Shown one piece after another: positions 9,110 to 48,211 of a stretch of DNA of 64,000 nt. Positions within the stretch are counted from its first letter, which is position 1. Each line of letters opens with the position of its first letter. Under the pieces are notes generated by a model, which had not been told where the DNA came from, did no database searches, and was given only the letters and a program-made list of their open reading frames with translations. The DNA is from Blastomonas sp. SL216 (GTDB lineage Bacteria > Pseudomonadota > Alphaproteobacteria > Sphingomonadales > Sphingomonadaceae). The DNA lies in NCBI GenBank assembly GCA_026625625.1, contig CP113055.1, positions 1,552,501 to 1,616,500 on the forward strand, read 5' to 3'. The position numbers and the translations under genes were made by a program.

Positions 9110-9140
9110 CCGCTCAGCCTGAGCCTGTCGAAGGCCCCGC
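9110..9140 (+). repeat. REP element (family A), solo copy
   Basis: A 31-bp repeat: GCTCAGCCTGAGC (6-bp arms around one base) followed by CTGTCGAAGGCCCCGC. It stands in direct orientation 37 bases before the left end of the GIY-YIG cassette. The same 31-mer occurs, with one or two changes, at 9178, 9526, 22092, 22439, 34411, 34582 and 48181. Confidence 0.9.
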
Positions 9141-9177: not shown

Positions 9178-9556
9178 CCGCTCAGCCTGAGCTTGTCGAA
9201 GGCCCCGCGATAACGGTAGCGTTTGCGGATGTCCTTCTACGCCTACCTGCTCCGATGCAACGACGGCAGCTACTATGCCGGGCACACCGACGATCTTGAG
9301 CACCGCCTGTCCCAGCACCAACTCGGCACGCTCGGGGGCTACACTGCCAAACGATTGCCCGTCTCGCTGGTCTGGTCTGAGGATTTCGGCTCGCGCGAGG
9401 ATGCTTTCTGGGTCGAGCAACAAATCAAGGGCTGGTCTCGCGCCAAGAAGGAGGCCCTCATTGCCGGCGACTGGGACCTGATTTCTCAACTCGCACAGAA
9501 CAGGACGGCAAGCGGCACCGGCTGTGCGGGGCCTTCGACAGGCTCAGGCTGAGCGG
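9178..9556 (+). mobile_element. REP-bounded GIY-YIG cassette, copy A (379 bp)
   Basis: A 31-bp REP at 9178-9208 and its inverted partner at 9526-9556 enclose exactly one gene. Between the left REP and the ATG are 20 bases. The gene's stop lies inside the right REP, 4 bases from the outer end. The second cassette at 22092-22469 has the same architecture and almost the same length. This matches a small mobile or mobilised unit with a cognate nuclease; transposition itself is inferred and no target-site duplication was identified. Confidence 0.6.
9229..9552 (+). CDS. GIY-YIG endonuclease domain protein, intact catalytic site
   Basis: A 107-residue single-domain GIY-YIG protein (UPF0213/YhbQ type). 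FYAYLLRCNDGSYYAGHTDD holds the YAY...YAG version of the signature, LEHR gives the conserved arginine, and VEQQIKGWSRAKKEALI carries the expected catalytic glutamate (Glu63). The C-terminal CAGPSTGSG is encoded by the REP repeat. The ATG at 9229 has no strong ribosome binding site; GTTTGCGG precedes it. It is about 74% identical, without gaps, to the copy at 22096. The role is unknown; nicking or cleaving REP hairpins is a plausible guess. Confidence 0.88.
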   Translation: MSFYAYLLRCNDGSYYAGHTDDLEHRLSQHQLGTLGGYTAKRLPVSLVWSEDFGSREDAFWVEQQIKGWSRAKKEALIAGDWDLISQLAQNRTASGTGCAGPSTGSG

Positions 9557-16635: not shown

Positions 16636-17574
16636 ATGATACAACTGCCCATTCTTTCGCTCACCGACGAACCTGCCGCTCTCGCGCAGAAGCTCGGCGA
16701 CAGTTTTTCGACCTATGGCTTTGCGATGATCAAGGACCATGGCCTCGATCCCGCGCTGGTGCGCCTGGGCTGGGCCAAGACCGAAGAGTTTTTCGCGCTG
16801 CCGACAGAGGAAAAGCGCCGCTATTACGATGCGCAAGCCGGCGGTCAGCGCGGGTACACCCCGTTCGGCACCGAGATTGCCAAGGATGCCAAGGCGCATG
16901 ACCTCAAGGAATTCTGGCATGTCGGGCGCGAGATCGATCCCGCCAGCCCGATCGCGCACACGATGCCCCGGAATGTCTGGCCCGAGCGTCCGGACGGCTT
17001 TCGCGCGACGTTCGACCCGCTGTTCGCCGAGTTCGACCGTGTCGGCAACATCATCCTGTCGCGCATCGCGGTGTATCTGGGCCTGAATGCCGACTGGTTC
17101 GAGCCTGCGGTGCATGAGGGCAATTCGATCCTGCGGCTGCTGCACTATCCGCCGATGGACGCGAGCCAGGGCGCAGAAGGCGCGATCCGCGCCGGCGCGC
17201 ATGAGGATATCAACCTGATCACGCTGCTGCTGGGCGCAGAAGAAGGCGGGCTGGAAATTCTCGCCAAGGATGGCAGCTGGATCGACATGCGCCCGCCCGA
17301 AGGCGCGCTCGTCGTCAATGTCGGCGACATGCTGCAGCGGCTGACCAACCATGTCCTGCCCTCGACCACGCACCGCGTGCGCAATCCTGCGGGCGACCGG
17401 GCGCGCTACAGCCGCTATTCGATGCCCTTCTTCCTGCACCTGCGATCGGATTTCCCGATCCGCACGCTGGAAGGCTGTATCAGCGCCGAGCGGCCCAACC
17501 GCTATCCCGAGCCGATCCTGGCCGACGATTATCTGCATGAGCGGCTGGTCGAGATCGGCCTGGTAAAGGCGTGA
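16636..17574 (+). CDS. 2-oxoglutarate/Fe(II) oxygenase, isopenicillin N synthase family
   Basis: A 312-residue non-haem iron oxygenase. The iron facial triad is His189 and Asp191 (AGAHEDINLITLLL) with His246 (STTHRVRN). The 2OG-binding RxS is at about residue 260 (RYSRYSMPFF). The N-terminal DIOX_N segment includes YGFAMIKDHGLDPALV and GQRGYTPFG. I chose the ATG at 16636 because family homology begins there. The substrate is unknown; relatives act on small metabolites rather than only on beta-lactam precursors. Confidence 0.92.
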   Translation: MIQLPILSLTDEPAALAQKLGDSFSTYGFAMIKDHGLDPALVRLGWAKTEEFFALPTEEKRRYYDAQAGGQRGYTPFGTEIAKDAKAHDLKEFWHVGREIDPASPIAHTMPRNVWPERPDGFRATFDPLFAEFDRVGNIILSRIAVYLGLNADWFEPAVHEGNSILRLLHYPPMDASQGAEGAIRAGAHEDINLITLLLGAEEGGLEILAKDGSWIDMRPPEGALVVNVGDMLQRLTNHVLPSTTHRVRNPAGDRARYSRYSMPFFLHLRSDFPIRTLEGCISAERPNRYPEPILADDYLHERLVEIGLVKA

Positions 17575-17613
17575 TCCAGGCCTGAGCAAACGGGCGATGC
17601 GCGCGGCGCGGGT

Positions 17614-18570
17614 TCAGTCCCCGCCGCCGCATCCGCCCCCGCAGCCGCTGCTGCAACCGCTGTCGCCGCCCGAATCGCTGCTGCCGGAATCGCCGCCCGA
17701 ATCCCAACTGCCCTCGGCCCCGCCGCCACCGAAATCGCCGCCGCCCGCGACAAAGGCCGCGCCACCCGCTGCGGCCGCGCCGCCGCCCGATTCCGACCAG
17801 CCGCCAAAGCTGCTGTCCGAACTGCCCGATCCGCTGTCGTCCCGGTCACGCCGCCGCGCGTTGCGCTGGGTCGCCGTTCTGTGGCCGCGCCTCCAGATGC
17901 GGTCGATCAGAGTGCCGATGAGCAGCATCAGCACGAACGCGACGCCGACCAGCACGACAATGCCGTAATTCGTGTCGAACACGAAGTTGAGCGCCCGGTC
18001 AGCCGGCGAAACTCCCTGGGGCTGTGCCGTCTTTGCCACCAGCGCGGTGCACGCCGCCAACAGGCTCGCGCCGCCTGCCATGGCTGCGATCAGCACGGTC
18101 TTTCGTGGCAGCAGGATGTGACGGCTGCGATCCACCCATTGATAGCGCGTGCCGAACCGGATGTCCGATGGCGGCCAGATGTCGCTCGGCGGTTCCTGCC
18201 CGAATGCGGCGCGATAGCGCGCCAGCGTGTCGGCATAGAGGCTGCGGTATTTGCGCGATTCGGCACCGCCGCCTGCGGTCGGCCCATGGTGCAGCGGCCG
18301 CCCGATGATCCGCGCGCACAACTCCTCCCAATAATGCCGGGTATAGGCGAGGTGCAGATGCCAGGCCTGGTCGACCTGGTCGGACGGGGTGACTTCGCCG
18401 GTGCCGGTGGCAGCGAGGTACAGGAAGCGGCGATATTCCTCCATCACCGCTTCGGCATGGGCGCGCGACCAGCCATTTTCACGCGCCAGCCGCCGGGTGA
18501 AGGTCAGCGCTGCACCCTGCGGCTCGATACGCATATCGGCAAGCGCCCGCCAAATCGGATCGTCGACCAT
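17614..18570 (-). CDS. GRDP-like protein with Gly/Ser/Cys-rich tail
   Basis: A 318-residue protein. Residues about 1-120 resemble the glycine-rich-domain-containing protein family (DUF1399), seen in VDQAWHLHLAYTRHYWEELC. Two hydrophobic segments follow (IAAMAGGASLLAACTALVA and IVVLVGVAFVLMLLIGTLI). An Arg-rich stretch precedes a low-complexity tail of Gly/Ser/Asp blocks ending in four closely spaced residues of Cys and Gly (GCSSGCGGGCGGGD). Similar membrane proteins with glycine-rich C-termini are annotated as TIGR04222-like. Function unknown. The start at 18570 begins the recognisable domain. Confidence 0.75.
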   Translation of the reverse strand: MVDDPIWRALADMRIEPQGAALTFTRRLARENGWSRAHAEAVMEEYRRFLYLAATGTGEVTPSDQVDQAWHLHLAYTRHYWEELCARIIGRPLHHGPTAGGGAESRKYRSLYADTLARYRAAFGQEPPSDIWPPSDIRFGTRYQWVDRSRHILLPRKTVLIAAMAGGASLLAACTALVAKTAQPQGVSPADRALNFVFDTNYGIVVLVGVAFVLMLLIGTLIDRIWRRGHRTATQRNARRRDRDDSGSGSSDSSFGGWSESGGGAAAAGGAAFVAGGGDFGGGGAEGSWDSGGDSGSSDSGGDSGCSSGCGGGCGGGD

Positions 18571-18640
18571 CACCGCCCTCCCCGCCGTTTTGGTAGAGCG
18601 GAGGCTATCGAGTCCTTGGCATGGGGGCAATCATCAAATG

Positions 18641-18684
18641 TAAAACAAAAATGGGAGCATTTGCGGTGCTGCAAATGCTCCCAT
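18641..18684 (-). terminator. Strong intrinsic terminator, minus strand
   Basis: A perfect 14-bp inverted repeat (18651-18664 with 18671-18684, loop GGTGCT) is followed on the minus strand by TTTTTGTTTTA. It ends the gene at 18709 and insulates the GRDP-like gene beyond. Confidence 0.9.
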
Positions 18685-18708
18685 TCGTTGTTCGCGAGGC
18701 GCGCAGGA

Positions 18709-19614
18709 TCAGCGGCGGATGCGCGCCCGGGTTTCCAGATCGCTCAGGCGGCGATCGAGATAGGCGCGGTCATCGGCGCTGGCGTTCAGCCGCGCATAGG
18801 CCGCTTCCAGCCGGGTCAGGTCTTCATGCTCGACCCGCAGCTGCGCCTGAGCACTGGCCGAAAGGCCGCTGGAGGGCAGCGCACGGGCAATTGCGTCAAG
18901 CCGCACGCGCGGGGTCTGCACCGTGTTGCCGCCACCCGACGACGCCATGTCGCCGACGCGGGCATCGAGCGCCTCGAGCCGGGTATAGAGGTCATCGCGT
19001 TCCTGGTCGGTGATGCGGCCATCGCGCAGATAGGTGGATTCGGTGCGGACCAGAGTCGCATAATCGGTCTTCAACCGGGCCCCCGCCACGCGGGTGATGC
19101 GGCGCGCGTTGACCGAAGCATCGACACGCTGGTTGAACTCGGTCTGGCCATCGGCGATCGAGATGCCGATATCCGAGCCGTATTCGTCACCATAAGTGCC
19201 GTCGGCGATCACCTGGGTCAGCTGGCCATAACGGTCGGCCAGGTCCTCACGCTCCTGCGTGGTAAAGCGGCGGTCGGCACCATAGCGCGCCTCGAGTTGC
19301 ACCAGATCATAATAGTCGCTCTTCAGCCGCGTCGCGGTGCGCTGGTCGAGCTGGCCCGAACGGACATCGGCATCGATCCGCGCCTCGAACTGGCCGCGCT
19401 GCGTTGCCAGCGGCGTGCGGCCGAACGACCATTGCGCCTCGATCGACTGGGTGGAGCCGGTGCGATCACCGAACAGCGCGCCGAAGATCGAGTTGAGCCG
19501 CTCCTGCTGGCGCGAACGCTGCGGATCGGCGGTGGTGCCGTCGGTCTGGGCGAACGCGGCGGTGCCGGTCAGCATCAGGGCGGCAGCGGCGGTAGCGGTA
19601 TAGAGTGACTTCAT
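18709..19614 (-). CDS. Secreted protein with three internal repeats, unknown function
   Basis: A 301-residue exported protein; the signal peptide ends at about TAAFAQ (residue 23). The mature part contains three related ~57-residue units at about 76-132, 160-215 and 237-293. Units one and two share the pattern ARLKxDYxxLVxxExxYxxDxR[FI]TxQERxDL, while the third is degenerate. The segment LRDGRITDQERDDL loosely resembles half of an EF-hand loop but lacks the full set of acidic ligands. It has its own strong terminator. I do not recognise the family. Confidence 0.8.
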   Translation of the reverse strand: MKSLYTATAAAALMLTGTAAFAQTDGTTADPQRSRQQERLNSIFGALFGDRTGSTQSIEAQWSFGRTPLATQRGQFEARIDADVRSGQLDQRTATRLKSDYYDLVQLEARYGADRRFTTQEREDLADRYGQLTQVIADGTYGDEYGSDIGISIADGQTEFNQRVDASVNARRITRVAGARLKTDYATLVRTESTYLRDGRITDQERDDLYTRLEALDARVGDMASSGGGNTVQTPRVRLDAIARALPSSGLSASAQAQLRVEHEDLTRLEAAYARLNASADDRAYLDRRLSDLETRARIRR

Positions 19615-19704
19615 AACGCAATTTCCTTGTTGAACGATGCACGCAGTACGTGCCGCCCCAAGGAGGGTTGCGACGAACCGTTTCGCCGCCCCTGTAAAAT
19701 CGCG

Positions 19705-20244
19705 TCAATTGGCCAGGCTGGTCCTGAGCTGGCCGATCACCTTGTCCTGGGCGTCCAGCAGGGCGAGCAGATGCACGCGCGCCTGTTCGATCTGGTCGCT
19801 GCCGCCGGGCTTCACCTCGCCCGCCGCTTCCTTCTGCACCCGCGCGACGTACAGCTCTTCCAGATCACCCAGGATCTGCGCCAGTTCGCGCCGGGGGGCA
19901 TCGAGCGCGCTGATCCGGGTCTGCGCCACCGACCAGTCCTCGCTGCCCACCGCATCGCCGCGCGCTGCGCCTGTGGCGGCCTGCGCCGCGGAACGGGCGA
20001 CGGCAAAGTCCGCCTCGGCCGTGTCGGCACGCGCGAGCATCGCGGCAAGATCGCGCGCCAGGGCGGGATCGCTCACGGTCTCGATCGGCGGCGGCGGGGC
20101 CTTGGCCTCGGCCTGGCGATCGCGCAGCTCGACCTCGCGCCGTTCCAGCGAAGGGCGTTCTGCCATCGGCTGAAGGCATGCGGCCAGCAGCACGGGCAGT
20201 GCAAGGGCGGACAAGCGGGCGATTTTTGCCGAGGTGACTTTCAT
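19705..20244 (-). CDS. Lipoprotein of unknown function, 179 aa
   Basis: The N-terminal signal ends in the lipobox LAAC ([20 protein letters not shown]), which decides the ATG at 20244. The mature part is charged, Ala-rich and predicted to be mainly helical, with a likely coiled coil in the C-terminal half ([20 protein letters not shown] and [20 protein letters not shown]). It lies 90 bases downstream of nothing co-oriented and upstream of the repeat-protein gene on the same strand. No family recognised. Confidence 0.8.
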
Positions 20245-20342
20245 GGACCAAGGCTCTAGGACAGCCAGCATATCTGGGCAACCGGCTTGCCACGCCCGCC
20301 GCCGGCAATCCGCCCGAACGGCCAAAAAAGCCGCTGCGATGG

Positions 20343-20371
20343 TTGACAGCACCAGCGGTTTCACCTAACGG
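20343..20371 (+). promoter_or_regulatory. Sigma70-like promoter for rplU-rpmA
   Basis: A perfect TTGACA (20343-20348) is followed after 17 bases by TAACGG. This predicts a start near 20378 and an untranslated leader of about 140 bases before rplU. The -10 is imperfect. Confidence 0.5.
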
Positions 20372-20519
20372 GCATGGCTTTCCGGCGCGGGGCATCCCGT
20401 CGCAGGGCAGTGGTTTTCACTCTACCGATTCGGGCCTGGCTACAGGCAGGATGAAACAGGTGAACGTCACAATTTGCGTGCCCGGAACCCGATTGAAGCT
20501 AACAGAAACGAGACAACCC

Positions 20520-20981
20520 ATGTTCGCTATCGTGCGCACAGGCGGCAAGCAGTATCGCGTTGCAGCCGGAGACAAAATCGCAGTGGAGAAACTGGCCGGC
20601 GAGGCTGGCGACGTCATTGCGCTGAACGACGTTCTGCTCGCCGGTGACGGCGGCGAGGTCAAGGATGTGGCCGGTGTGGTCGTCTCCGCCGAAATCATCG
20701 CCCAAGCCAAGGCTGAAAAGGTGGTGATCTTCAAGAAGAAGCGTCGCCACAACTATCGCCGCAAGCTCGGCCACCGCCAGCAGCACACGATCCTGCGCAT
20801 CGTCGCCGTGGGCGAAGAAGCGAAGAAGGCTCCCGCCAAGAAGGCCGCTGCCAAGACCGAAGCTCCGGTCGAAGCTGCTGCCGAAACCCCCGCTGCCGAG
20901 GCTGCACCCAAAAAGGCTCCGGCCAAGAAGGCTGCCACCAAGAAGGCCGCTGACACCGATTCGTCGGCTGACAACGCCTGA
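20520..20981 (+). CDS. rplU: 50S ribosomal protein L21 with Lys/Ala-rich C-terminal extension
   Basis: Residues 1-102 are an ordinary L21, which binds 23S rRNA ([17 protein letters not shown] at the start, [20 protein letters not shown], then RQQHTILRI). The remaining ~50 residues are a low-complexity tail of KKAPAKKAA- and PAEAAP-type motifs, reminiscent of histone H1 tails; bacterial L21 usually ends near residue 103. Such tails are known in some alphaproteobacteria. It is followed by rpmA after 29 bases, the conserved order. Confidence 0.97.
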
Positions 20982-21010
20982 TCGCGCGCGAACCCAAGGA
21001 GTTTTGAGAA

Positions 21011-21286
21011 ATGGCACATAAGAAAGCAGGCGGTTCGTCGCGCAACGGTCGTGATTCCGCAGGTCGTCGTCTTGGCGTGAAGAAGTTCGGTGGCGAGCCC
21101 GTCATCGGCGGCAACATTATCATCCGCCAGCGCGGAACCAAGGTCTATGCCGGTGCCAATGTCGGCATGGGCAAGGACCATACGCTGTTTGCGCTCACCG
21201 AAGGCCGCGTGAAGTTCCACGAAGGCCGCCTTGGCCGCAAATACGTATCGGTCGTCGCCCCGGCGATGGCGGAAGCCGCCGAATAA
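21011..21286 (+). CDS. rpmA: 50S ribosomal protein L27
   Basis: A 91-residue L27. The N-terminus [20 protein letters not shown] is the flexible tail that reaches the peptidyl-transferase centre. [20 protein letters not shown] is the globular core. A Shine-Dalgarno (CAAGGAG) precedes the ATG. A terminator lies about 70 bases downstream, closing the rplU-rpmA unit. Confidence 0.98.
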
Positions 21287-21354
21287 CGGACGATCGATGA
21301 CGGGTCGTCCTTCAAGGGATGACCCCGGCCGGTGAAAACCCGGACCAGATGACA

Positions 21355-21389
21355 GGGAGATGGGGTCCGTCCCGTCTCCCTTTCTTTTT
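21355..21389 (+). terminator. Terminator after rpmA
   Basis: The stem GGGAGATGGG / CCCGTCTCCC (one wobble pair) is followed by TTTCTTTTTG. It closes the rplU-rpmA transcript. Confidence 0.88.
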
Positions 21390-21464
21390 GTCTCCCTGTC
21401 ACCGCACTGACTCCAGCCTGTCACTTTTGGCTGGCAAGGGCGCGGACAACACAGGAGAGACATA

Positions 21465-22007
21465 ATGTTTGCAAGAACGCAAAGATTGTTGCTGCGGCCG
21501 GTCTGGCCCGAAGATGCCGGTGCACTGTTCGCGGGCATCAACGACGAGCGCATCGTGTGCAACCTTGCCCGCGCGCCCTGGCCCTACAGCCCTGAACACG
21601 CGCGAGAATTCGCCGCCCGCGCGCAGGACCCCTTTTATCCGCACTATCTGCTGACGCTGCCGGGCGATGCCGGGCAGACGCTGATCGGCAGCTGCGGCCT
21701 GGGGCAGACCGATCAGGGCGAGGCCGAGCTGGGATACTGGATCGCGCGCGATCACTGGGGCAAGGGCTATGCCACCGAGGCCGCGCGCGCGGTGATCGCC
21801 AATGCCTGGACATTGGGGCACCGCAAGCTCGTCGCCAGCCACTATATCGACAATCCCGCTTCGGGCGCGGTGCTGCAGCGGCTGGGCTTCGTCCCCACCG
21901 GCGTCACCCGCCCCCGCTTCAGCGCCGGACGCGGCTATGCAGCGATGGCGCAGGAATATGCGCTGGAGAGCGACATGGTGGAGGTAGAGCGACCGCTCGC
22001 GGCGTGA
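21465..22007 (+). CDS. GNAT acetyltransferase, RimJ/RimL type
   Basis: A 180-residue protein of the RimJ/L-like GNAT subfamily. It starts with RTQRLLLRPVWPEDAGALFA, contains the AELGYWIARDHWGKGYATEA acetyl-CoA-binding block (WGKGYATEA is motif A), and ends with SGAVLQRLGFVPTG (motif B). Relatives acetylate ribosomal-protein N-termini or small amines; the substrate here is unknown. It follows the rpmA terminator and precedes the second GIY-YIG cassette. Confidence 0.93.
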   Translation: MFARTQRLLLRPVWPEDAGALFAGINDERIVCNLARAPWPYSPEHAREFAARAQDPFYPHYLLTLPGDAGQTLIGSCGLGQTDQGEAELGYWIARDHWGKGYATEAARAVIANAWTLGHRKLVASHYIDNPASGAVLQRLGFVPTGVTRPRFSAGRGYAAMAQEYALESDMVEVERPLAA

Positions 22008-22091
22008 GAGGTGAGCGAGGCGCGGTGGGTAGCGCCGCCCCAAGCCCCGCCCCTCCGCGAAGGCGGAGGTACCGCGCTATCCGCACCACGC

Positions 22092-22469
22092 CCGCTCAGC
22101 CTGAGCTTGTCGAAGGCCCCGCGCTATCCTTGGCCGAATAACTCACCCCCCTCGAAAGCCGCGAAACGAGCGCCCAATCTCCGGCGATCAGCGCTTCGTT
22201 CTTCGCTCGCGACCAGCCCTTGATCTGCCGCTTCACCCCGAACGCATCCTCGCGCGAGGCAAAGTCCTCAGACCAGACCAGTTCAACAGGCCGTCTTTTC
22301 GCGGTATAGCCCCCGCAGGCACCGCTGGCATGCTGGGACATTCGGTGTTCGAGGTCGTCAGTATGCCCGGCATAATAGCTACCGTCGCTGCATCGCAAAA
22401 GATACGCGTAAAAGGCCATAGCCCAGAATAGCGGTTTCGCGGGGCCTTCGACAAGCTCAGGCTGAGCGG
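22092..22469 (-). mobile_element. REP-bounded GIY-YIG cassette, copy B (378 bp)
   Basis: Inverted 31-bp REP copies at 22092-22122 and 22439-22469 enclose one gene on the minus strand. Spacing from REP to ATG is 19 bases and from stop to outer REP end 4 bases, matching copy A at 9178-9556 (20 and 4). The two copies stand in opposite orientation 12.5 kb apart. The matched architecture implies duplication as a unit. Confidence 0.6.
22096..22419 (-). CDS. GIY-YIG domain protein lacking the catalytic glutamate
   Basis: A 107-residue paralogue of the protein at 9229, ungapped and identical at 79 of 107 positions by hand alignment. The YAY...YAG signature (FYAYLLRCSDGSYYAGHTDD) and LEHR arginine are kept. 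At position 63, where copy A has the expected catalytic Glu (VEQQIKGW), this copy reads Lys (VKRQIKGW; codon AAG). The C-terminal AGPSTSSG and stop come from the REP. The nuclease is probably inactive, or retained as a binding protein. Confidence 0.85.
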   Translation of the reverse strand: MAFYAYLLRCSDGSYYAGHTDDLEHRMSQHASGACGGYTAKRRPVELVWSEDFASREDAFGVKRQIKGWSRAKNEALIAGDWALVSRLSRGVSYSAKDSAGPSTSSG

Positions 22470-22561
22470 AGGTGGGGTGGCGTTGGGACTGCGGAAGACA
22501 AAACTTGCCGTTCAGCAAATAACCCCATTGCGGACATTCACGCTCCGTGTTCAGATGACTG

Positions 22562-22903
22562 ATGGGCCGTTGGATATCCACTGTCTGCGGTATTGCGTTG
22601 GCTGCTTGCGTAATGCTTGTGGTTCTTTGGCTGCGCGCTGAAAGTCACCTTCGTCAGCTACAACAAGAAGTTCGTTACCCGCTTGATGCGCCGTTAGAGC
22701 GCAGAGCTTATCAAGCGAAAGCTCGTTCCGAACGTAGCAGCGTGAGTGAGATCGAAGCCCATCTTTTTCCTGTGACCGTTTCTTTCCCAGATCGTGATTG
22801 TGTGGAGTTGAGACCGCGCTGGGGCGTTAAGGGTGGCACGAGCATTTCATGCTTCTCGAACGAAACGGGTAAACTCCTTAGCCACGACAATATTGGTGAA
22901 TGA
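22562..22903 (+). CDS. Small membrane-anchored hypothetical protein
   Basis: A 113-residue protein with one N-terminal hydrophobic segment (about 5-25, TVCGIALAACVMLVVLWL) and a soluble tail with two cysteines near the C-terminus (RDCVELRP and SISCFSN). Base composition is clearly less GC-rich than the neighbours, with unusual codons (TTG, CTT, TTT), suggesting recent acquisition. It begins about 90 bases beyond the REP cassette. No family recognised; gene reality rests on length, signal and the absence of a competing frame. Confidence 0.5.
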   Translation: MGRWISTVCGIALAACVMLVVLWLRAESHLRQLQQEVRYPLDAPLERRAYQAKARSERSSVSEIEAHLFPVTVSFPDRDCVELRPRWGVKGGTSISCFSNETGKLLSHDNIGE

Positions 22904-23023
22904 ACGGCAGCTGATTACCGAGTAGCAGCCATCTCAACCTGCTGCTCTGCGCCCCTAAACCGGACGCTTGCAACCCTCTGAACCCGTCCAAGCGACCTCA
23001 TCCCTCGGCGCCACACAAGCGGG

Positions 23024-23043
23024 ATTCCCGCTTTCGCGGGAAT
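23024..23043. repeat. Hairpin repeat, ATTCCCGC-tttc-GCGGGAAT
   Basis: A perfect 8-bp inverted repeat with a TTTC loop followed by GACG. This is a widespread proteobacterial intergenic hairpin type; only this copy was noticed here. It stands just downstream of the SPOR-lipoprotein gene (minus strand) without a T run. Confidence 0.6.
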
Positions 23044-23075
23044 GACGAGGGGTTGGATGTTGAAGCCCCCTCGCC

Positions 23076-24575
23076 TCAGCGGCGCGCGGCGATCTGGGTT
23101 CCGGCGGCCTTGGCGGGCACCGCGCGGGCGATGATGCATTCACCGCCACCGGACCGAACCTGCGCACACATGGCGCGGGCGCTCTTCTCGTCGGCAAAGC
23201 CGTTCGCGGTCAGGCGGTGCAGCGTGCGGCTGCCCACCGTGGTCGGCACGGCAACCTTGGAAAAGGCCGCGAGATCCTTGTGCTTGGCGCTATAGCCAGC
23301 CCAGGCGCGGGTGGCATTGGCCGCGCTCGAGAACATGCCGAGCTGCACGGCAAAGGCACCGTTGCTGACCGGGGTGAAGCTGGCCTTCTGGAACAGCGCG
23401 GGCGCGGGAGCCGCCTTGGCGGGTGCCGCCTTGGCAGGCACGGCCTTGGGTGCGGGCGCAGCCTTGGGCAGCGGGGCAGCCGCAGCCATCTGAACCGCCT
23501 GCTTTTCAGCCAGCGCCTTGCGCGCGGCGACCTGTTCGGGGCGCAGCTTGCGCACCGGCTTGGCGCGATAGTTGCCGGGCAGCGGCTGGACGATCTCGCG
23601 CGCGGTCATCAGCGGCGCGACGATCGCACCCGAAGGCGCAGGCGCGACGGCAGGTGCGGCTTCGGCCATCACCGGCGCGGGCACGGCAGCCGGAGCCGAT
23701 GCAGGCACCGGCACAGCTTCGACACCGGCGAGCTCCATCGGCTTGTCTTCGACCGGCGGCAGTTCGATGGGACCGGCAGCGGGCGCGGCAGCTGCCAGAG
23801 CCTGCTGGCCGATCTGGGTTGCGGCGTCGGCCATCGCCGGGGTCGCGGACAGCGCCAGCATCACCGGCTGGCCGGGATCAGCCTGCGCCGGGGCCACGCC
23901 CAGCACCGATGCGACACGCTGGGCATGGGCCTGGGGATGCGCGATACGCGCCCATTCGGCAATCCGTGCTTCGGCGACCGAAGGATCGAGATCCTGTCCT
24001 GCCATGATCTGTGCCTCGCGCCAGCGACCGTCGAGGGCGTAGGCAAAAGCGAGATTCTGTCGTACCTTGGCGGTGTTATCTCCACCGCGAATGAGGTTGG
24101 CGAGCACATCGACACCCTGTTTGGTGTCGCCTGCCAGCGCCATGGCAAGGCCGAAATCGCCTGCGGGAATGGCATCGCGGTGCTGCTCGAGCAGCGCCTG
24201 AGCGGCAGCGGGGCGACCTTCGGCAACATGCATCAGCGCCAGGCTGATCACCGTGCGCGCGCTGGCATCACCCAGCGCCAGCGCATCGTCGAGCGACTGG
24301 CGGGCAGAGGCGAAGCGGCCATTGGCGAGATAGGCCTGGGCCAGCATCTTGCGCAACTCGGCATTGCGCGGGTCGAGCGCGACAGCGGCTTCGGCCTTTT
24401 CGAGCGCCTTGTCGGTCTTGCCGGCAGCGAGCGCCTTTTGCGACGAGGACGACAGGCTCTGCGGACGACCGCCACCGCCATGCGCCGAGCAACTCACCAG
24501 CACGCTGCCGACGAGGATGGTCGATGCCGCCAGCTTGAGCGCCAGCGCCCGGTTGATCTTCGATCCGCTTGCCAT
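23076..24575 (-). CDS. TPR/SPOR-domain lipoprotein
   Basis: A 499-residue protein; the signal ends with LVSC (Cys29), so it should be lipid-anchored. Residues about 45-230 form TPR-like repeats (KALEKAEAAVALDPRNAELR, then RKMLAQAYLANGRFASARQS). An Ala/Pro-rich linker of about 170 residues follows. The C-terminal ~75 residues are a SPOR domain (FAVQLGMFSSAANATRAWAG to SARAMCAQVRSGGGECII) that in the family binds denuded septal peptidoglycan. It ends the ParA / RHH operon, so a role at the division site is likely. Confidence 0.85.
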   Translation of the reverse strand: MASGSKINRALALKLAASTILVGSVLVSCSAHGGGGRPQSLSSSSQKALAAGKTDKALEKAEAAVALDPRNAELRKMLAQAYLANGRFASARQSLDDALALGDASARTVISLALMHVAEGRPAAAQALLEQHRDAIPAGDFGLAMALAGDTKQGVDVLANLIRGGDNTAKVRQNLAFAYALDGRWREAQIMAGQDLDPSVAEARIAEWARIAHPQAHAQRVASVLGVAPAQADPGQPVMLALSATPAMADAATQIGQQALAAAAPAAGPIELPPVEDKPMELAGVEAVPVPASAPAAVPAPVMAEAAPAVAPAPSGAIVAPLMTAREIVQPLPGNYRAKPVRKLRPEQVAARKALAEKQAVQMAAAAPLPKAAPAPKAVPAKAAPAKAAPAPALFQKASFTPVSNGAFAVQLGMFSSAANATRAWAGYSAKHKDLAAFSKVAVPTTVGSRTLHRLTANGFADEKSARAMCAQVRSGGGECIIARAVPAKAAGTQIAARR

Positions 24576-24615
24576 AGCCCTGTTCCCTCTTTGTCGGCCC
24601 CGACCTGCCTGCACC

Positions 24616-25347
24616 TCAGCGCGTTGCCGATCGCGTGACGCGACCTGCCAGGTCTTCTATTTCGGTCATTTTGGTTAACAATTCGTCAAGCGCCGCCGTG
24701 ACCAGCTGCTGCGCGGATTGCCCGCTGACTGCGCTGGCCAGCCGCAGCTTGAGATGCCGGTCGGCATCGAGGCGCAGCGTGAACGCCGCGCGGCGCGCCG
24801 AGGCCTGGACGGCGGCGGCGACGACCTCCTCGATCACCGCCTGCTTGCGCTTGCGCGGCTTGGCGGAAAGAACGGGTGCGAAAGCGGCCTGCGGTGCGGG
24901 CTCTTCCATCGCCATCGGTTCGGCAACCGGGGCCGGTTCGGCGGCGACCACCGGTTCGAGCGCGATGGCGGCGATCGGTTCTGCGACCGGCCCGGGCTCG
25001 GCAAGGCGTTCGGCAATCTCTGCCTGCTGGCGCACCACATCGGGCACCTCCGGCGCGGCCACCGGCTGCGGTTCGGCCTGGCCCGGCACGGCATCGGGGA
25101 TCGCGCCTGCCAGCAGATTGCCATAATGCGGTGCGCGCTCCTCATGCGCAGGATCGACATCATAGCCCATGTCGTTCCAGCCCAGATCGTCCTGCACGCC
25201 ATAGCCGCCCGGTGTCAGCCCCGCGGTTCCCAGCGTGCCCAGACCATCCATGCCCTGGCGGCGCATCGCGGGGCGCGCGGCCCCCTTGCGCGCCAGCAGG
25301 CCGGAAGAAAGCGATGCTATCGGTTTGGGTTCGGCCATAAAGCTCAT
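24616..25347 (-). CDS. Ala/Pro/Glu-rich protein with C-terminal ribbon-helix-helix-like domain
   Basis: A 243-residue protein lying directly after the ParA gene (19 bases) and 40 bases before the SPOR lipoprotein gene. The long N-terminal part is low complexity (PVAEPIAAIALEPVVAAEP). The C-terminal ~60 residues (RAAFTLRLDADRHLKLRLAS onward, SAQQLVTAALDELL) match the strand-helix-helix layout of an RHH DNA-binding domain. The ATG at 25347 follows GAGGGCAAGG; 25338 is an alternative. It may be the DNA- or partner-binding adaptor of the ParA ATPase. Confidence 0.7.
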   Translation of the reverse strand: MSFMAEPKPIASLSSGLLARKGAARPAMRRQGMDGLGTLGTAGLTPGGYGVQDDLGWNDMGYDVDPAHEERAPHYGNLLAGAIPDAVPGQAEPQPVAAPEVPDVVRQQAEIAERLAEPGPVAEPIAAIALEPVVAAEPAPVAEPMAMEEPAPQAAFAPVLSAKPRKRKQAVIEEVVAAAVQASARRAAFTLRLDADRHLKLRLASAVSGQSAQQLVTAALDELLTKMTEIEDLAGRVTRSATR

Positions 25348-25366
25348 CCTTGCCCTCGCCTCTGCA

Positions 25367-26083
25367 TCACGATCCGGCCACGCGGCGGCCGAAGCCACCC
25401 ATCGGGCGGATCGCCCCGGGCGCGACGGGCGCATTGGGCACGGCAAACACGGTGCGGCGGAAGTTCTTTTCCAGCCGGTCGGAAATATAGGTCCACAGCG
25501 CGCGCACCTCGCCGGCGGACTTGCCGTTGGGGTCGACCTCCATCACCGTGCGGCCATCGATCATCGATGCGGCAAAATCGGTGCGATGGTGCAAAGTCGT
25601 CGGCGCGACTGTCCCATGCTGGGACAAGGCGACAGCGGCTTCAGAGGTGATCCGCGCCTTGGGCGTGGCGGCGTTGACGACGAAGATCAGCGGCTTGCCC
25701 GCGCGCTCGCACAGGTCGACCGTCGCCCCCACTGCGCGCAGATCGTGCGGGCTGGGCCGGGTCGGGACCACGATCAGCTCTGCGACCGAGATGACCGACT
25801 GGATCGCCATGGTGATCGCAGGCGGCGTATCGATGACGGCGAGCTTGAAGCCCTGCTGGCGCAAAATGGCAAGATCGGCAGGCAGCCGTGCGACCGTGGT
25901 CTGCGCAAATGCGGGATATTCGGGCTCGCGCTCGTTCCACCAATCGGCCAGCGAGCCTTGCGGATCGATGTCGATCAGCACCACCGGGCCGTCGCCGGCC
26001 AGCTGCGCCTGCACGGCCAGATGACCCGAAAGGGTCGTCTTGCCCGATCCTCCTTTTTGTGATGCCAAAGCGAGTACGCGCAC
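25367..26083 (-). CDS. ParA-family ATPase
   Basis: A 238-residue deviant Walker ATPase. The Walker A motif is QKGGSGKTTLSGHLA (residues 9-23), with VLIDIDPQGSLADWW (A') and LAVIDTPPAI (Walker B-like). Such ATPases position plasmids, chromosomes, chemoreceptor arrays or division proteins by gradient formation. No ParB gene or parS-like repeats are adjacent; instead an RHH-type protein and a SPOR lipoprotein follow. This is therefore probably not the main chromosomal ParA. The promoter region is shared with the Sel1-SPOR gene. Confidence 0.93.
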   Translation of the reverse strand: MRVLALASQKGGSGKTTLSGHLAVQAQLAGDGPVVLIDIDPQGSLADWWNEREPEYPAFAQTTVARLPADLAILRQQGFKLAVIDTPPAITMAIQSVISVAELIVVPTRPSPHDLRAVGATVDLCERAGKPLIFVVNAATPKARITSEAAVALSQHGTVAPTTLHHRTDFAASMIDGRTVMEVDPNGKSAGEVRALWTYISDRLEKNFRRTVFAVPNAPVAPGAIRPMGGFGRRVAGS

Positions 26084-26238
26084 TCCAAACCCCCTATAAG
26101 GTCCATCCGGTCAGGGCAGAAAATGCGGCAGGGCACCTAATTTTGAGTTAACGCTGGGCCGGACGCGGCGGGATGAGGCCCGGAAAATCGGGCTTTGGCG
26201 TGGCTTGCAACGGCTCTTGATGCGGGCGTCAACGCTTT

Positions 26239-26279
26239 GCTAACGTCTCGTTAGCTATAGCCCTTTACGCATGTAAAGG
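26239..26279. promoter_or_regulatory. Two adjacent palindromes between divergent ParA and Sel1-SPOR genes
   Basis: GCTAACG-TCT-CGTTAGC (26239-26255) is followed by CCTTTAC-GCAT-GTAAAGG (26262-26279). They lie between the divergent starts and contain TATAGC, a possible -10. They could be operators or 5' UTR hairpins. Confidence 0.4.
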
Positions 26280-26361
26280 CCGGTAAGCCCGGCTTGCCGC
26301 GTGCATGCCGCCTGATAGGATGAGCGCACGACTTTACCAAATGCGATGGAGCAAGACCCGC

Positions 26362-27558
26362 ATGGCACGTTCGACAAAATTTTCCCGCAATTTTCAGATG
26401 TTGGGCGCTGCGGTGCTCGCACTTACGGTGGCCAGCCCGGCGCTGGCCGATGTCAAGGCCGGGGTCGATGCCTGGGAACGCGGCGATTTCGCCAATGCCG
26501 TGGCCGAATGGCGCGATCCTGCGACCAGGGGCGATGCCGATGCGCAGTTCAACCTGGGCCAGGCCTATAAGCTGGGCCGGGGCGTGCCGATGGATCTGAA
26601 ACAGGCCGAAGCCTGGTACAAGAAGGCGGCTGATCGCGGCCATGTCCAGGCGGCGGACAATTACGGGCTGGTGCTGTTCCAGGACAATCGCCGCGAAGAG
26701 GCGATGCCCTATATCCGCGCGTCCGCCGGGCGCGGCGAGCCCCGCGCGCAATATGTGCTGGGCACCGCGATGTTCAACGGCGACATTGCCGAGAAGGACT
26801 GGGTGCGCGCCTATGCGCTGATGACCCGCGCCTCCGCGCAGGGCCTGCCCCAGGCCTCGCGCAGCCTGGCGACGATGGACAAATATATCCCGCTGGCCGA
26901 GCGGACCCGCGGCACCCAGCTGGCCGCACAGCTTGAGCGCGAGGCCGTGGCCGAACGCCAGAAGCTGGCCGGCGCAGCCGCAGGCCTCGCCACGGCCGAT
27001 ACCGCCACCGGCGCCACCGCTCCGGTCAAGCCGGTCGTCACCGCCGCCGCCAGGCCCGCCCCGGTGCTGACCCGCCCGGCCACCGGATCGACGATCCAGA
27101 CCACCGACCTGCCGCCTTCGCGCGTCAATGGCACGGTGATCCCGACCCTGCCCTCCAGCCCGACTGGCACCGCAGCGAGCGCAGGCGTCGATTTCGCGAC
27201 CATGGGCACGCCTTCCGCACCTGCGCCGACGATGGCTCCGGCCCCGGCCCCGGCACCCAGGCCTGCCGCTCCGGTGGCTGCACCGGTCGCCACCGCCGCC
27301 AGCACCGTGCCTGCGGTCACCGCCATCGGCGACTGGCGCATCCAGCTGGGCGCGTTCAGCGAAGAAGGCCGCGCACGCACCCTGTGGAGCGGGCTCGAAC
27401 GTCAGAATGCCGCGCTGAACGGCCTGCAGCCCTATCTGGTCAAGGCTGGCGCGGTCACCAAGCTTCAGGCAGGGCCGTTCGCGAGCCAGGCGGACGCCAA
27501 AAAGGCGTGCGACGCCGTCGCCCGCACCGGCCAGGCCTGTTTCGCGATCAAGAAATGA
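26362..27558 (+). CDS. Sel1-repeat / SPOR-domain protein
   Basis: A 398-residue exported protein; the signal peptide ends in ASPALAD. Sel1/TPR-like repeats occupy about residues 40-180 (DAQFNLGQAYKLGRGVPMDL, AEAWYKKAADRGHVQAADNY). A Thr/Ala/Pro-rich linker follows. A SPOR domain of ~75 residues ends the protein (DWRIQLGAFSEEGRARTLWS to DAKKACDAVARTGQACF). I chose the ATG at 26362 because it opens directly into the signal. It is divergent from the ParA operon and is the second SPOR protein of this locus. Confidence 0.88.
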   Translation: MARSTKFSRNFQMLGAAVLALTVASPALADVKAGVDAWERGDFANAVAEWRDPATRGDADAQFNLGQAYKLGRGVPMDLKQAEAWYKKAADRGHVQAADNYGLVLFQDNRREEAMPYIRASAGRGEPRAQYVLGTAMFNGDIAEKDWVRAYALMTRASAQGLPQASRSLATMDKYIPLAERTRGTQLAAQLEREAVAERQKLAGAAAGLATADTATGATAPVKPVVTAAARPAPVLTRPATGSTIQTTDLPPSRVNGTVIPTLPSSPTGTAASAGVDFATMGTPSAPAPTMAPAPAPAPRPAAPVAAPVATAASTVPAVTAIGDWRIQLGAFSEEGRARTLWSGLERQNAALNGLQPYLVKAGAVTKLQAGPFASQADAKKACDAVARTGQACFAIKK

Positions 27559-27567
27559 CAATGGCCG

Positions 27568-27595
27568 ACAGGGGGCGAGCGATCTTGCCCCCTGT
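27568..27595. terminator. Hairpin between convergent genes
   Basis: The 9-bp arms ACAGGGGGC / GCCCCCTGT lie between the stops of the Sel1-SPOR and K+ channel genes. There is no T run on either side, so termination is uncertain. Confidence 0.4.
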
Positions 27596-27600
27596 GCTGG

Positions 27601-28650
27601 CTAATCGACGGCCATCGTTACCGGCGGACGGCCATCGCCCTGGGTGATGACGACAATGGTATCGTCCGCGCGCAGGCTGGCGCTCTCATCGTCCCGGAAG
27701 CCATAGGGCTTGCCTTCGCGGTAGATGCGTACGCCGATACCGTCCTTGATGTCCTTGAGCGGAATGCCGATTTCCTCGGTCCGTACGCTGCGCTCGATCA
27801 GCACCACCCGCCCGCTCGACGAGGCGAGATCGGCCAGATAGCTGCTGATATGCGGCCCGCTGCACGATCCGGCGAGCAGCAGCCCGGCAAAGCTCACAGG
27901 ATTTATGACCGTGTTCGCGCCTGCCTGGCGCGCGAGCAGCTCGTTGTCGCCTGCGCGGATCACGACGCTGATCGGCACATCGGGGGCCAGATGGCGGATG
28001 GTCAGCACGATCAGGATCGAGGTATCATCGCGCCCGGCCGACACGATCGCCGAGCACGCCCGGTCGATATGCACGTCCTTCAGCGTCTCGTCGCGCGTCG
28101 CATCGGCGTTGAGCACATTGCAGCCCATCGCTTCGGCCTGGACCAGCGATTCCTCGGACTGGTCGACCACGACGATGCACGACGGATCGGTGCCGCGCGC
28201 GATCAGTTCGCGCACCGCTTCGGACCCGCTTGTACCAAAGCCCAGCACGACAATATGCCCCTTCAGGCGCTGCTGGATCCTGCTCATCTGCCATTTTTCC
28301 CATGTGCGCTTGATGACGAAACTATAGGCGGTGCCCACGAAGATGAAGATCACCGCGACCCGGACCGGCGTCACCAGCACCGATTCGATCAGCCGCGACC
28401 GGTCGGACACCGGGGCGATATCGCCAAAGCCGGTGGTGGTGACCGAGATCATGGTGAAATAGACGACATCCAGAAAGCTGATATGGTTGTCGTAATTGTC
28501 CTTGAGCCCCGCGCGGTCGATCCAGTGGATCAGGATGACAAAGGCGATCAGGAAAAAGGCGATGCTCAGCCGCAGCGTCACATCCGCCCAGACCGGCAGG
28601 CGCGCGGCGCGCTTCAGCAGCGCGCGCGGCTTGGTTTCGGGTTCGGCCAT
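27601..28650 (-). CDS. Potassium channel with RCK/TrkA-N domain
   Basis: A 349-residue inner-membrane channel subunit. Two membrane helices flank the pore: LRLSIAFFLIAFVILIHWI and VAVIFIFVGTAYSFV, with the selectivity filter TTTGFGD between them. The RCK domain starts at HIVVLGFGTSGSEAV (Rossmann), followed by a C-terminal regulatory half. It resembles MthK/Kch-type two-helix channels. The M23 lipoprotein gene ends 11 bases before its start on the same strand, so the two are likely co-transcribed with surE. Confidence 0.92.
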   Translation of the reverse strand: MAEPETKPRALLKRAARLPVWADVTLRLSIAFFLIAFVILIHWIDRAGLKDNYDNHISFLDVVYFTMISVTTTGFGDIAPVSDRSRLIESVLVTPVRVAVIFIFVGTAYSFVIKRTWEKWQMSRIQQRLKGHIVVLGFGTSGSEAVRELIARGTDPSCIVVVDQSEESLVQAEAMGCNVLNADATRDETLKDVHIDRACSAIVSAGRDDTSILIVLTIRHLAPDVPISVVIRAGDNELLARQAGANTVINPVSFAGLLLAGSCSGPHISSYLADLASSSGRVVLIERSVRTEEIGIPLKDIKDGIGVRIYREGKPYGFRDDESASLRADDTIVVITQGDGRPPVTMAVD

Positions 28651-33101: not shown

Positions 33102-34423
33102 CCGCAGGGATTTCCGCACTGTTCATGCGCTGGGGCTGGATCGAGCGCCCGCAAGACCTGCAATATGTCGAGGGCGTGATGGCCGCGCTGATCGCCACCG
33201 CCGCGCTGATGATCGGCTGGGGGTTGAGCCGCCTGATCTATATGCGGCTGGCGGCGATCTGGGAACGGCGCGCCGGCTATGAAAGCCAGCTCGCCCGCCG
33301 CCGCATCCGCGACATGGTGCGCCGCTTCACCACCGCGATGCTGATCGGCATGGCGCTCAACCTCTATGACTGGAGCCTGATCGCCTCGGTGGTGTTCGGC
33401 ATCACGCTCGCCATCTCGCTGGCGCTGTTCGTCAACGATCTGGTGCGCGGCGTGCGCATGCCCGACTGGCTGGGCACGTTCCTGGGCCTGGCGACGCTGA
33501 TCTCGATCCTGGCGAGCATGTTCGGCGGATTGGACCCGATCACCACCGCGATGGACCGGGTGGGCTTCAACCTCGGGGAAAAGCGCTTCTCGCTGCTCTG
33601 GGTGGTCACCATAGCGATCACCATCCTGGTGCTCTATACCGCTGCGCGCGTGGTCAACCGCATCGCCGGGCATATCATCGGCAGCAGCGACGGGCTCGAT
33701 CCCACGCAGAAGCTGCTGGGGCAGAAGATCGCCAGCGTCGTCGTCATCGTGCTCGCCTTTTTCATCGGCATCGACACGCTGGGCATCGACCTTACCGCAC
33801 TCAGCTTTTTCTCGGGCGCTTTCGGCCTTGCCATCGGTTTCGGCCTGCAGAAGACGATCGGCAACCTGTTTGCGGGCATCATCCTGCTGCTCGACCGGTC
33901 GATCAAGCCGGGGGATGTCATCGCTGTGGGCGACAGCTTCGGCTGGGTGAACAAGATCGGCGTGCGCGCGGTGTCGGTCATCACCCGCGACGGCAAGGAG
34001 CATCTGATCCCCAACGAGGACCTGATGACCACCCCGGTGGAGAACTGGTCCTATTCGGACCGCAACGTGCGGATGCGCATCCCGCTGGGCGTCAGCTATT
34101 CGAGCGACATGCAGCTGGTGCAGGAACTGCTCTACCGCGCGGTCGATGAAGCACCGCGCGTGCTGAAAGACCCTGCCCCGCGCATCTGGATGACCGATTT
34201 CGGCGACAACAGCGTCAACTGGGAAATCCGCGCCTGGATCAGCGATCCCGAAGGCGGCATGGGCAATATCCGCGGCGACGTTCTGATGCGCGTGTGGGTA
34301 CTGTTCAAGGAACACGGGATCGAGATCCCGTTCCCGCAGCGGGACCTGTATATCAAGGAAATGCCGGGCATGGGGGCGGCGGAGGCCGCTTCGAAAGGTG
34401 ATGCCCCCTCCCGCTCAGCCTGA
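33098..34423 (+). CDS. Mechanosensitive channel, MscS family
   Basis: A 441-residue inner-membrane channel. Several hydrophobic segments precede the MscS core (FSGAFGLAIGFGLQKTIGNL, the pore-lining TM3). DRSIKPGDVIAVGDSFGWVN and NVRMRIPLGVSYSSDM form the beta domain, and FPQRDLYIKEM is the C-terminal part. It is longer than E. coli MscS owing to extra N-terminal helices. The start overlaps the lyase stop (ATGA). The last four residues and the stop codon come from a REP repeat, which may have replaced the native C-terminus. Confidence 0.93.
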   Translation: MTAGISALFMRWGWIERPQDLQYVEGVMAALIATAALMIGWGLSRLIYMRLAAIWERRAGYESQLARRRIRDMVRRFTTAMLIGMALNLYDWSLIASVVFGITLAISLALFVNDLVRGVRMPDWLGTFLGLATLISILASMFGGLDPITTAMDRVGFNLGEKRFSLLWVVTIAITILVLYTAARVVNRIAGHIIGSSDGLDPTQKLLGQKIASVVVIVLAFFIGIDTLGIDLTALSFFSGAFGLAIGFGLQKTIGNLFAGIILLLDRSIKPGDVIAVGDSFGWVNKIGVRAVSVITRDGKEHLIPNEDLMTTPVENWSYSDRNVRMRIPLGVSYSSDMQLVQELLYRAVDEAPRVLKDPAPRIWMTDFGDNSVNWEIRAWISDPEGGMGNIRGDVLMRVWVLFKEHGIEIPFPQRDLYIKEMPGMGAAEAASKGDAPSRSA

Positions 34424-34612
34424 GCCTGTCGAAGGCCACGCACTGCCGCCCGCCCCAATGCCTACGTCATCCTGAACTCGTTTCAGGACCCATGGTGCAC
34501 CAAAAAGCCGAAGCCGCGTGGGGAGAAATGGACCCTGAAACAAGTTCAGGGTGACTCTCTAGATCATAGGGAACGTCAGGCGCGGGGCCTTCGACAGGCT
34601 CAGGCTGAGCGG
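34411..34612. mobile_element. MITE-like nested inverted repeat (202 bp)
   Basis: The outer ends are inverted REP-A copies (34411-34441, with a CACGC variant, and 34582-34612). Nested inside is a second inverted pair (34466-34491 and 34530-34555; core CCTGAACTYGTTTCAGG). The ~38-base centre holds no ORF. The layout fits a miniature inverted-repeat element using the same REP ends as the GIY-YIG cassettes but without the gene. Confidence 0.5.
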
Positions 34613-48180: not shown

Positions 48181-48211
48181 GCGGGGCCTTCGACAGGCTC
48201 AGGCTGAGCGG
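48181..48211 (-). repeat. REP element (family A), solo copy
   Basis: An inverted-orientation 31-bp REP-A copy just downstream of the TonB-like gene, with no partner found within a few hundred bases. Confidence 0.9.

Follow-up and report, generated by a model that had tools for sequence, protein, structure and literature searches.

GIY-YIG nuclease genes between inverted REP sequences in Blastomonas and other Alphaproteobacteria

REP-bounded units of the Blastomonas window

The window analysed here is a stretch of 64,000 nucleotides (G000:C1:1552501-1616500) of the single-contig, 3.86-Mb chromosome of a Blastomonas strain (G000). It holds two units in which a gene is placed between REP sequences, at 9178-9556 and 22092-22469, with one GIY-YIG gene of 107 aa in each. 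The left REP of unit 1 (9178..9208, forward strand; 31 bp) consists of the tag CCGCTCA followed by the hairpin GCCTGA..TCGAAGGC, and the right REP (9526..9556, reverse strand), also of 31 bp, is its inverted counterpart. Gene copy 1 (9229..9552, forward strand) begins with ATG, retains Tyr6, Arg26 and Glu63, and ends with a TGA at 9550-9552 within the right REP. The original prediction had described inverted 31-bp REPs enclosing a 107-codon GIY-YIG gene with its stop in the right REP, and this layout is confirmed at 9178-9556. An outer REP copy lies just beyond the left REP (9110..9140, forward strand). A second unit of the same layout had been proposed at 22092 and is likewise present. Here, gene copy 2 is on the reverse strand (22096..22419), with its ATG at 22419 and its stop (22098-22096) inside the REP on the 3' side of the gene (22092..22122, forward strand); the REP on the 5' side occupies 22439..22469 on the reverse strand. 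One correction concerns the protein: Lys replaces the conserved, probably catalytic Glu63, and copy 2 is therefore probably inactive. Its three same-site orthologues retain Glu63. In both units the REPs are intact on either side of the gene, so that the gene does not interrupt its own site as that of a homing endonuclease does.

Gene-less REPs had been predicted at 9110, 34411/34582 and 48181, and all are real. The pair with members at 34411..34441 (forward) and 34582..34612 (reverse) encloses a nested pair of CGTC-type palindromes (type D), with approximate outer limits 34465..34556 and cores at 34471-34487 and 34534-34550. A lone REP lies at 48181..48211 on the reverse strand. Another palindrome pair near the centre is seen in several gene-less REP pairs of the window type (type A), at window 34411-34612 and at G000 positions 385602, 1366200, 2495482 and 2556235; the loops of REP pairs look as if they were insertion targets for other palindrome pairs. 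Over the whole chromosome, 37 REP cores are found with at most three mismatches, against none for the reversed control.

GIY-YIG (PF01541) is the sole domain found in either protein (E 1.7e-13 for copy 1, 6.2e-13 for copy 2). The host chromosome matches this profile at four places: the two window genes, a small gene at about 3,758,340-3,758,675 (the third gene below) and a long frame of 656 aa, presumably uvrC. Inverted palindromes flank each of the three small genes. The solved structures nearest by sequence, 1zg2 and 1ywl, are UPF0213/YazA-like, and searches of NCBIfam and PADLOC assigned no family. Plasmid matches to copy 1 amount to 35 records, all below 60% identity. Across the 154 homologous loci described below, Tyr6 is conserved in 153, Arg26 in 149 and Glu63 in 148; we take these positions to be catalytic, as in other GIY-YIG enzymes. 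Five Blastomonas copies at a single site (L042, L043, L046, L049 and L053) have Asp in place of both Arg26 and Glu63 and lack flanking repeats; residue loss coincides with repeat loss there, and the frame is still open. Where it could be measured, in pairs from four orthologous sets and between copies 1 and 2, the ratio dN/dS is 0.02-0.23; this range leaves out three of six locus-1 pairs as saturated and indicates purifying selection on these genes. In-frame stops occur in 17 listed matches, which are not counted as decay because several may be natural ends in a variable C-terminal tail.

Repeats and palindromes around the nuclease genes

Of 298 genomes of the family, 107 have homologues (E<=1e-20). 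From the matches listed, 154 loci were examined (29 of the genus and 125 of the family), with 10 listed places left out. A de novo test finds inverted repeats across the gene, with a score of at least 14, at 127 of these 154 loci, whereas 150 shuffled controls peak at 10; the remaining 27 homologues have no detectable arms. Enclosure of the gene by inverted repeats is not due to chance. The A-type core typically stands about 35 nt before the start codon and again about 280-320 nt after it. Named sphingomonad and allied loci (L119-L154), a set that overlaps the unnamed loci in that some share contigs, score at least 14 in 33 of 36 cases. Of the 28 other named loci (L155-L182), 20 are from Firmicutes, and among the rest are Nitrincola, several MAG contigs and three partial matches of short length, including one from a sphingomonad (L179, Aurantiacibacter); inverted repeats scoring at least 14 are found at none of these 28.

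A-like cores stand on both sides of the gene at 71 loci, and their arms differ by lineage (GCC..GGC, TCC..GGA, CCC..GGG or GGC..GCC). Covariation over the 114 distinct arms of these loci is concentrated in two column pairs: columns 10-28, with a mutual information (MI) of 1.19 (G-C, T-A and C-G) and a Watson-Crick share of 92%, and columns 11-27, with an MI of 0.75 and a share of 94%. Every other column pair has an MI of at most 0.30. Because two outer stem positions covary, the A arm is best read as an unpaired tag CCGYTCR followed by a hairpin. Other lineages carry type B (TCCCGAGCGAAGTCGAGGGA), type D (CCCTGAAC..TTTCAGGG) or further palindromes, and each GIY-YIG lineage evidently has its own palindrome. 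In one genome (G076), two nucleases with different arms are accompanied by both REP variants. Folding energies of the arms as single-stranded DNA are clearly better than those of shuffles for type D only, and types A and B do no better than shuffles; the lowest-energy hairpin of the GCC variant, GCTCA/TGAGC, differs from the covarying one. The association of REPs with GIY-YIG genes is thus far broader than had been claimed: it is systematic, specific to each lineage and seen again with other families of palindromes.

REP counts broadly follow nuclease presence, with exceptions. The median number of A cores per family genome is 27.5 in the 46 genomes with an A-armed nuclease, where it is non-zero by construction because the unit's own arms are counted, 8 in the 61 with another homologue and 0 in the 191 without a homologue (E<=1e-20). 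Among these 191, 115 have no A core, 24 have at least 10 and nine have at least 20. The difference between A-armed and no-homologue genomes gives a Mann-Whitney p of 2e-22, with shared ancestry ignored. Within the genus, six genomes have a D nuclease and carry 18-27 type D repeats each, the two arms of that nuclease included, and the other three carry 3, 8 and 15. The five genomes that encode a B nuclease have 24-72 type B repeats, as against 3, 4, 26 (G006) and 31 (G007) in the remaining four.

The third gene of the host (L057/L303) encodes 110 aa from its ATG and is flanked by CGTCACCCTGAACTTGTTTCAGGG repeats (CGTCACCCTGAAC...TTTCAGGG), with its stop inside the right one. Its repeat has a CGTC tag and a CCA tail and fits the CGTC-tagged REPs, for which Di Nocera et al. 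2013 (PMC3733652) give a CGTC tag, a stem of 8-9 bp, a loop of 4-5 nt and a CCA tail. The REPs of the window units, tagged CCGYTCR, fall outside that superfamily as so defined. According to the same paper, CGTC REPs predominate in Alphaproteobacteria, their counterpart in Neisseriae is dRS3, and the intragenic set excluded REPs inside hypothetical proteins of <120 aa; in the words of the abstract, CGTC REPs 'apparently lack a dedicated transposase' (PMC3733652). The passages of PMC12306157 considered here mention no RAYT, nuclease or transposase, and no link between GIY-YIG and REPs appears in the titles or abstract openings among the literature matches listed.

Homologues of the third-gene protein (E<=1e-15) are found in 122 of 385 alphaproteobacterial genomes. 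In 70 of the longer list of homologous loci, 46 have inverted repeats scoring at least 14, and 70 shuffles peak at 12. A [CT]GTCA-tagged hairpin stands on both sides with tags outward at 23 of the 70, against 5/70 with tags inward, 0/70 shuffles and 0/24 of loci L158-L181. The plasmid collection has 33 records matching the third gene, eight of which were analysed; six have inverted repeats with scores of 21-33 (Neisseria gonorrhoeae, Aeromonas caviae, Azospirillum lipoferum, Sinorhizobium meliloti, Sphingobium and Neorhizobium), and no such repeats are seen in the Planktothrix (score 12) and Photobacterium (score 8) records. The scored pair of N. gonorrhoeae is more distant, at 139 nt before and 358 nt after the start of the match, and a further CGTCATTCCCGC..GCGGGAAT copy stands directly behind the gene. 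The N. gonorrhoeae protein shares 61% identity with the third-gene product over 88 aa and 36% with window copy 1 over 70 aa. A phage search with the third gene gave no match. One alphaproteobacterium (G421) has ten homologues of the third gene, and the eight compared (L331, L345, L346, L373-L377) are old by sequence, so that a number of nuclease-repeat pairs, possibly many, may coexist in a single cell.

Orthologous sites and inversion of the gene

Orthologous sites were compared in nine genomes of the genus (G000-G008), one per species. At locus 1, the site of unit 1, G000, G004 and G007 have the unit and G002 has it inverted. The unit is missing from G005, G006, G008 and G001, the last of which has one degenerate REP; G003 has another neighbour there. 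At locus 2, G000, G005 and G008 have the unit, G003 has it inverted, and G001, G002, G006 and G007 lack it; in G004 a REP pair encloses other filler. A deleted nuclease gene was considered for that filler and rejected, as its alignment score of 15.5 compares with a shuffle maximum of 20.5. Such variation in presence and orientation among orthologous loci argues against an accidental association. The original prediction had also looked to orthologous loci for precise excision or target duplication; presence and orientation do vary, and neither of these marks is readable. At loci 1 and 2 the flanks are too diverged or too filled with palindromes for a target duplication or a clean empty junction to be read.

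The flipped copies at these loci (L036 and L041) branch with their own locus, so the gene was inverted in place there, and independent insertion is rejected for both. For another flipped copy, L074, which branches away from L066/L067, independent insertion is possible. Ten clusters of orthologous sites hold 107 of the 154 loci, and flipped pairs occur in four of them; the largest flipping cluster (13 loci) has 17 flipped and 23 unflipped pairs. No inversion is seen in the other six clusters, including the two largest, of 45 and 24 loci.

A unit of the locus-2 lineage lies at another site in G004, with 86% identity over 413 nt and similarity ending 15-18 nt beyond the REPs. The REP pair at window 34411 is kept in G000, G003, G004, G006 and G008, with a different interior in G003. 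Recent transposition within multi-copy genomes was considered and finds no support in the 11 sampled: they contain no recent copies, aligned copies being only about 65-75% identical in DNA. As a separate observation, gene order over window 17574-27603 is broken relative to G001, G002, G006 and G007, with locus 2 at one joint; in the alternative order of G006, two of three joints carry A-type REPs.

Known systems and competing explanations

The gene between inverted tagged hairpins, with gene-less pairs (REPINs) elsewhere, resembles the RAYT/REPtron arrangement. The window units differ from it in encoding a GIY-YIG protein instead of an HUH/Y1 enzyme, and their REPs lack the GTAG tag. A RAYT in control of the window REPs was considered and set aside: the sole Y1_Tnp (PF01797) match of the chromosome (L064, G000:C1:3645802) has no A-type REP within 1.5 kb. 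Enzymes of the GIY-YIG type cleave DNA by hydrolysis, with no rejoining step. The proposal that the nuclease plays a part equivalent to that of a RAYT is not supported: hydrolysis comes without rejoining, no target duplication or empty junction is readable, copies in the 11 genomes are old and one REP pair is static across species. A RAYT-like transposing role of the nuclease is unproven. Also rejected is a plain UPF0213 housekeeping gene, since the related UPF0213/YazA-like genes of Firmicutes among the named loci, unlike the window genes, lack flanking inverted repeats.

Among known systems, the closest is the Ssn family of Neisseria, GIY-YIG nucleases reportedly described in Nature Communications in 2025 as specific for a repeat, NTS, in single-stranded DNA. 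The N. gonorrhoeae homologue of the third gene is presumably Ssn itself. In both cases a small GIY-YIG protein goes with an abundant palindromic repeat: the host has the 37 REPs, and window copy 1 has the conserved Tyr, Arg and Glu, of which copy 2 has lost the Glu (Lys63). The window genes differ in being tightly enclosed by inverted REPs, with the stop inside one of them, and in flipping between the arms; their main repeat is tagged CCGYTCR, whereas CGTC stands behind the N. gonorrhoeae homologue. CGTC-tagged REPs likewise resemble the present system in that many alphaproteobacterial GIY-YIG genes, the third gene included, lie between such repeats, and differ from the repeat of the two window units in tag. 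Given Ssn, the idea of a nuclease paired with a REP is probably not wholly new. What seems new is the compact, REP-bounded flipping unit, the covariation of the hairpin and the link to CGTC REPs in Alphaproteobacteria.

A partnership between nuclease and REP, in which the gene carries its own target on both sides, is the probable reading of these sequences. The unit would be a one-gene element, a small GIY-YIG endonuclease between inverted copies of its own target hairpin. Most likely the nuclease recognizes the REP as folded single-stranded DNA, with the unpaired 5' tag CCGYTCR and a short bulged hairpin whose outer base pairs may set specificity, and would cut or nick at or near it; scattered gene-less REPs and REP pairs would be further targets. 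The role of passive clients given to gene-less REPs in the original prediction is conjecture. Nicks at REPs, followed by host recombination repair, would account for genes inverted in place and for DNA exchanged between REP arms, and nicking with repair could slowly spread both the REPs and the gene. We infer that the REP serves as substrate, that the nuclease is specific for single strands and that its cutting drives recombination or spread; cutting of the REP, probably in single-stranded form, is suggested by the arm structure and by the Ssn/NTS system of Neisseria. That the nuclease spreads REPs is doubtful.

Other explanations place the same unit in a different setting. The nuclease may serve the host, as in the Ssn/NTS system: its cuts at REPs in single-stranded DNA, whether incoming or exposed, would tune DNA uptake or recombination, and the REPs would then be signposts and not mobile clients. 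This is plausible, if somewhat short of probable, and is consistent with the 61% identity over 88 aa of the N. gonorrhoeae homologue, with repeats directly behind it, the strong purifying selection, the conserved sites of 45 and 24 loci without inversion and the REP pair kept at its site across five species. Patchy presence and inversion of the gene between the arms are more like a selfish or drifting unit. An autonomous mobile element, a non-HUH REPtron whose nuclease moves REPs and whose gene-less REP pairs are non-autonomous members, would account for unit limits that are REP limits, for the locus-2-lineage unit at its other site in G004, for a REP number that tracks the nuclease (own arms counted) and for a REP-pair interior that varies between orthologous sites. 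It is nevertheless unlikely, as no target duplication or clean empty site is readable, the copies within sampled genomes are old and a hydrolytic nuclease needs host repair to complete a move. Accident or hitch-hiking, with REPs as ordinary hairpins or terminators gathering by short genes or the gene as a passenger in REP pairs, could draw on host REP pairs that enclose other palindrome pairs and on the unrelated filler at locus 2 in G004, and is highly improbable in the face of near-fixed spacing, lineage-specific arm variants, enclosure at 127 of 154 loci against none of the 28 remaining named loci and recurrence of the same design with unrelated palindromes.

In its widest form, the nuclease-REP partnership leads to a tentative suggestion. 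GIY-YIG nucleases might be the missing dedicated enzymes of a palindrome superfamily that takes in CGTC- and CCGYTC-tagged REPs. In such a second kind of REPtron, one that does without a transposase, a hydrolytic single-strand nuclease would sit between its own hairpin targets, and cutting and host repair would flip, swap and slowly spread REPs and gene.

The CGTC REPs gain a testable partner, a small GIY-YIG gene found between such repeats in many Alphaproteobacteria, whose usual length of under 120 aa makes it easy to miss. Assays can draw on the lineage variation in the stem bases for natural specificity pairs, and on the flipping units to ask whether the nuclease drives recombination at its own repeats.
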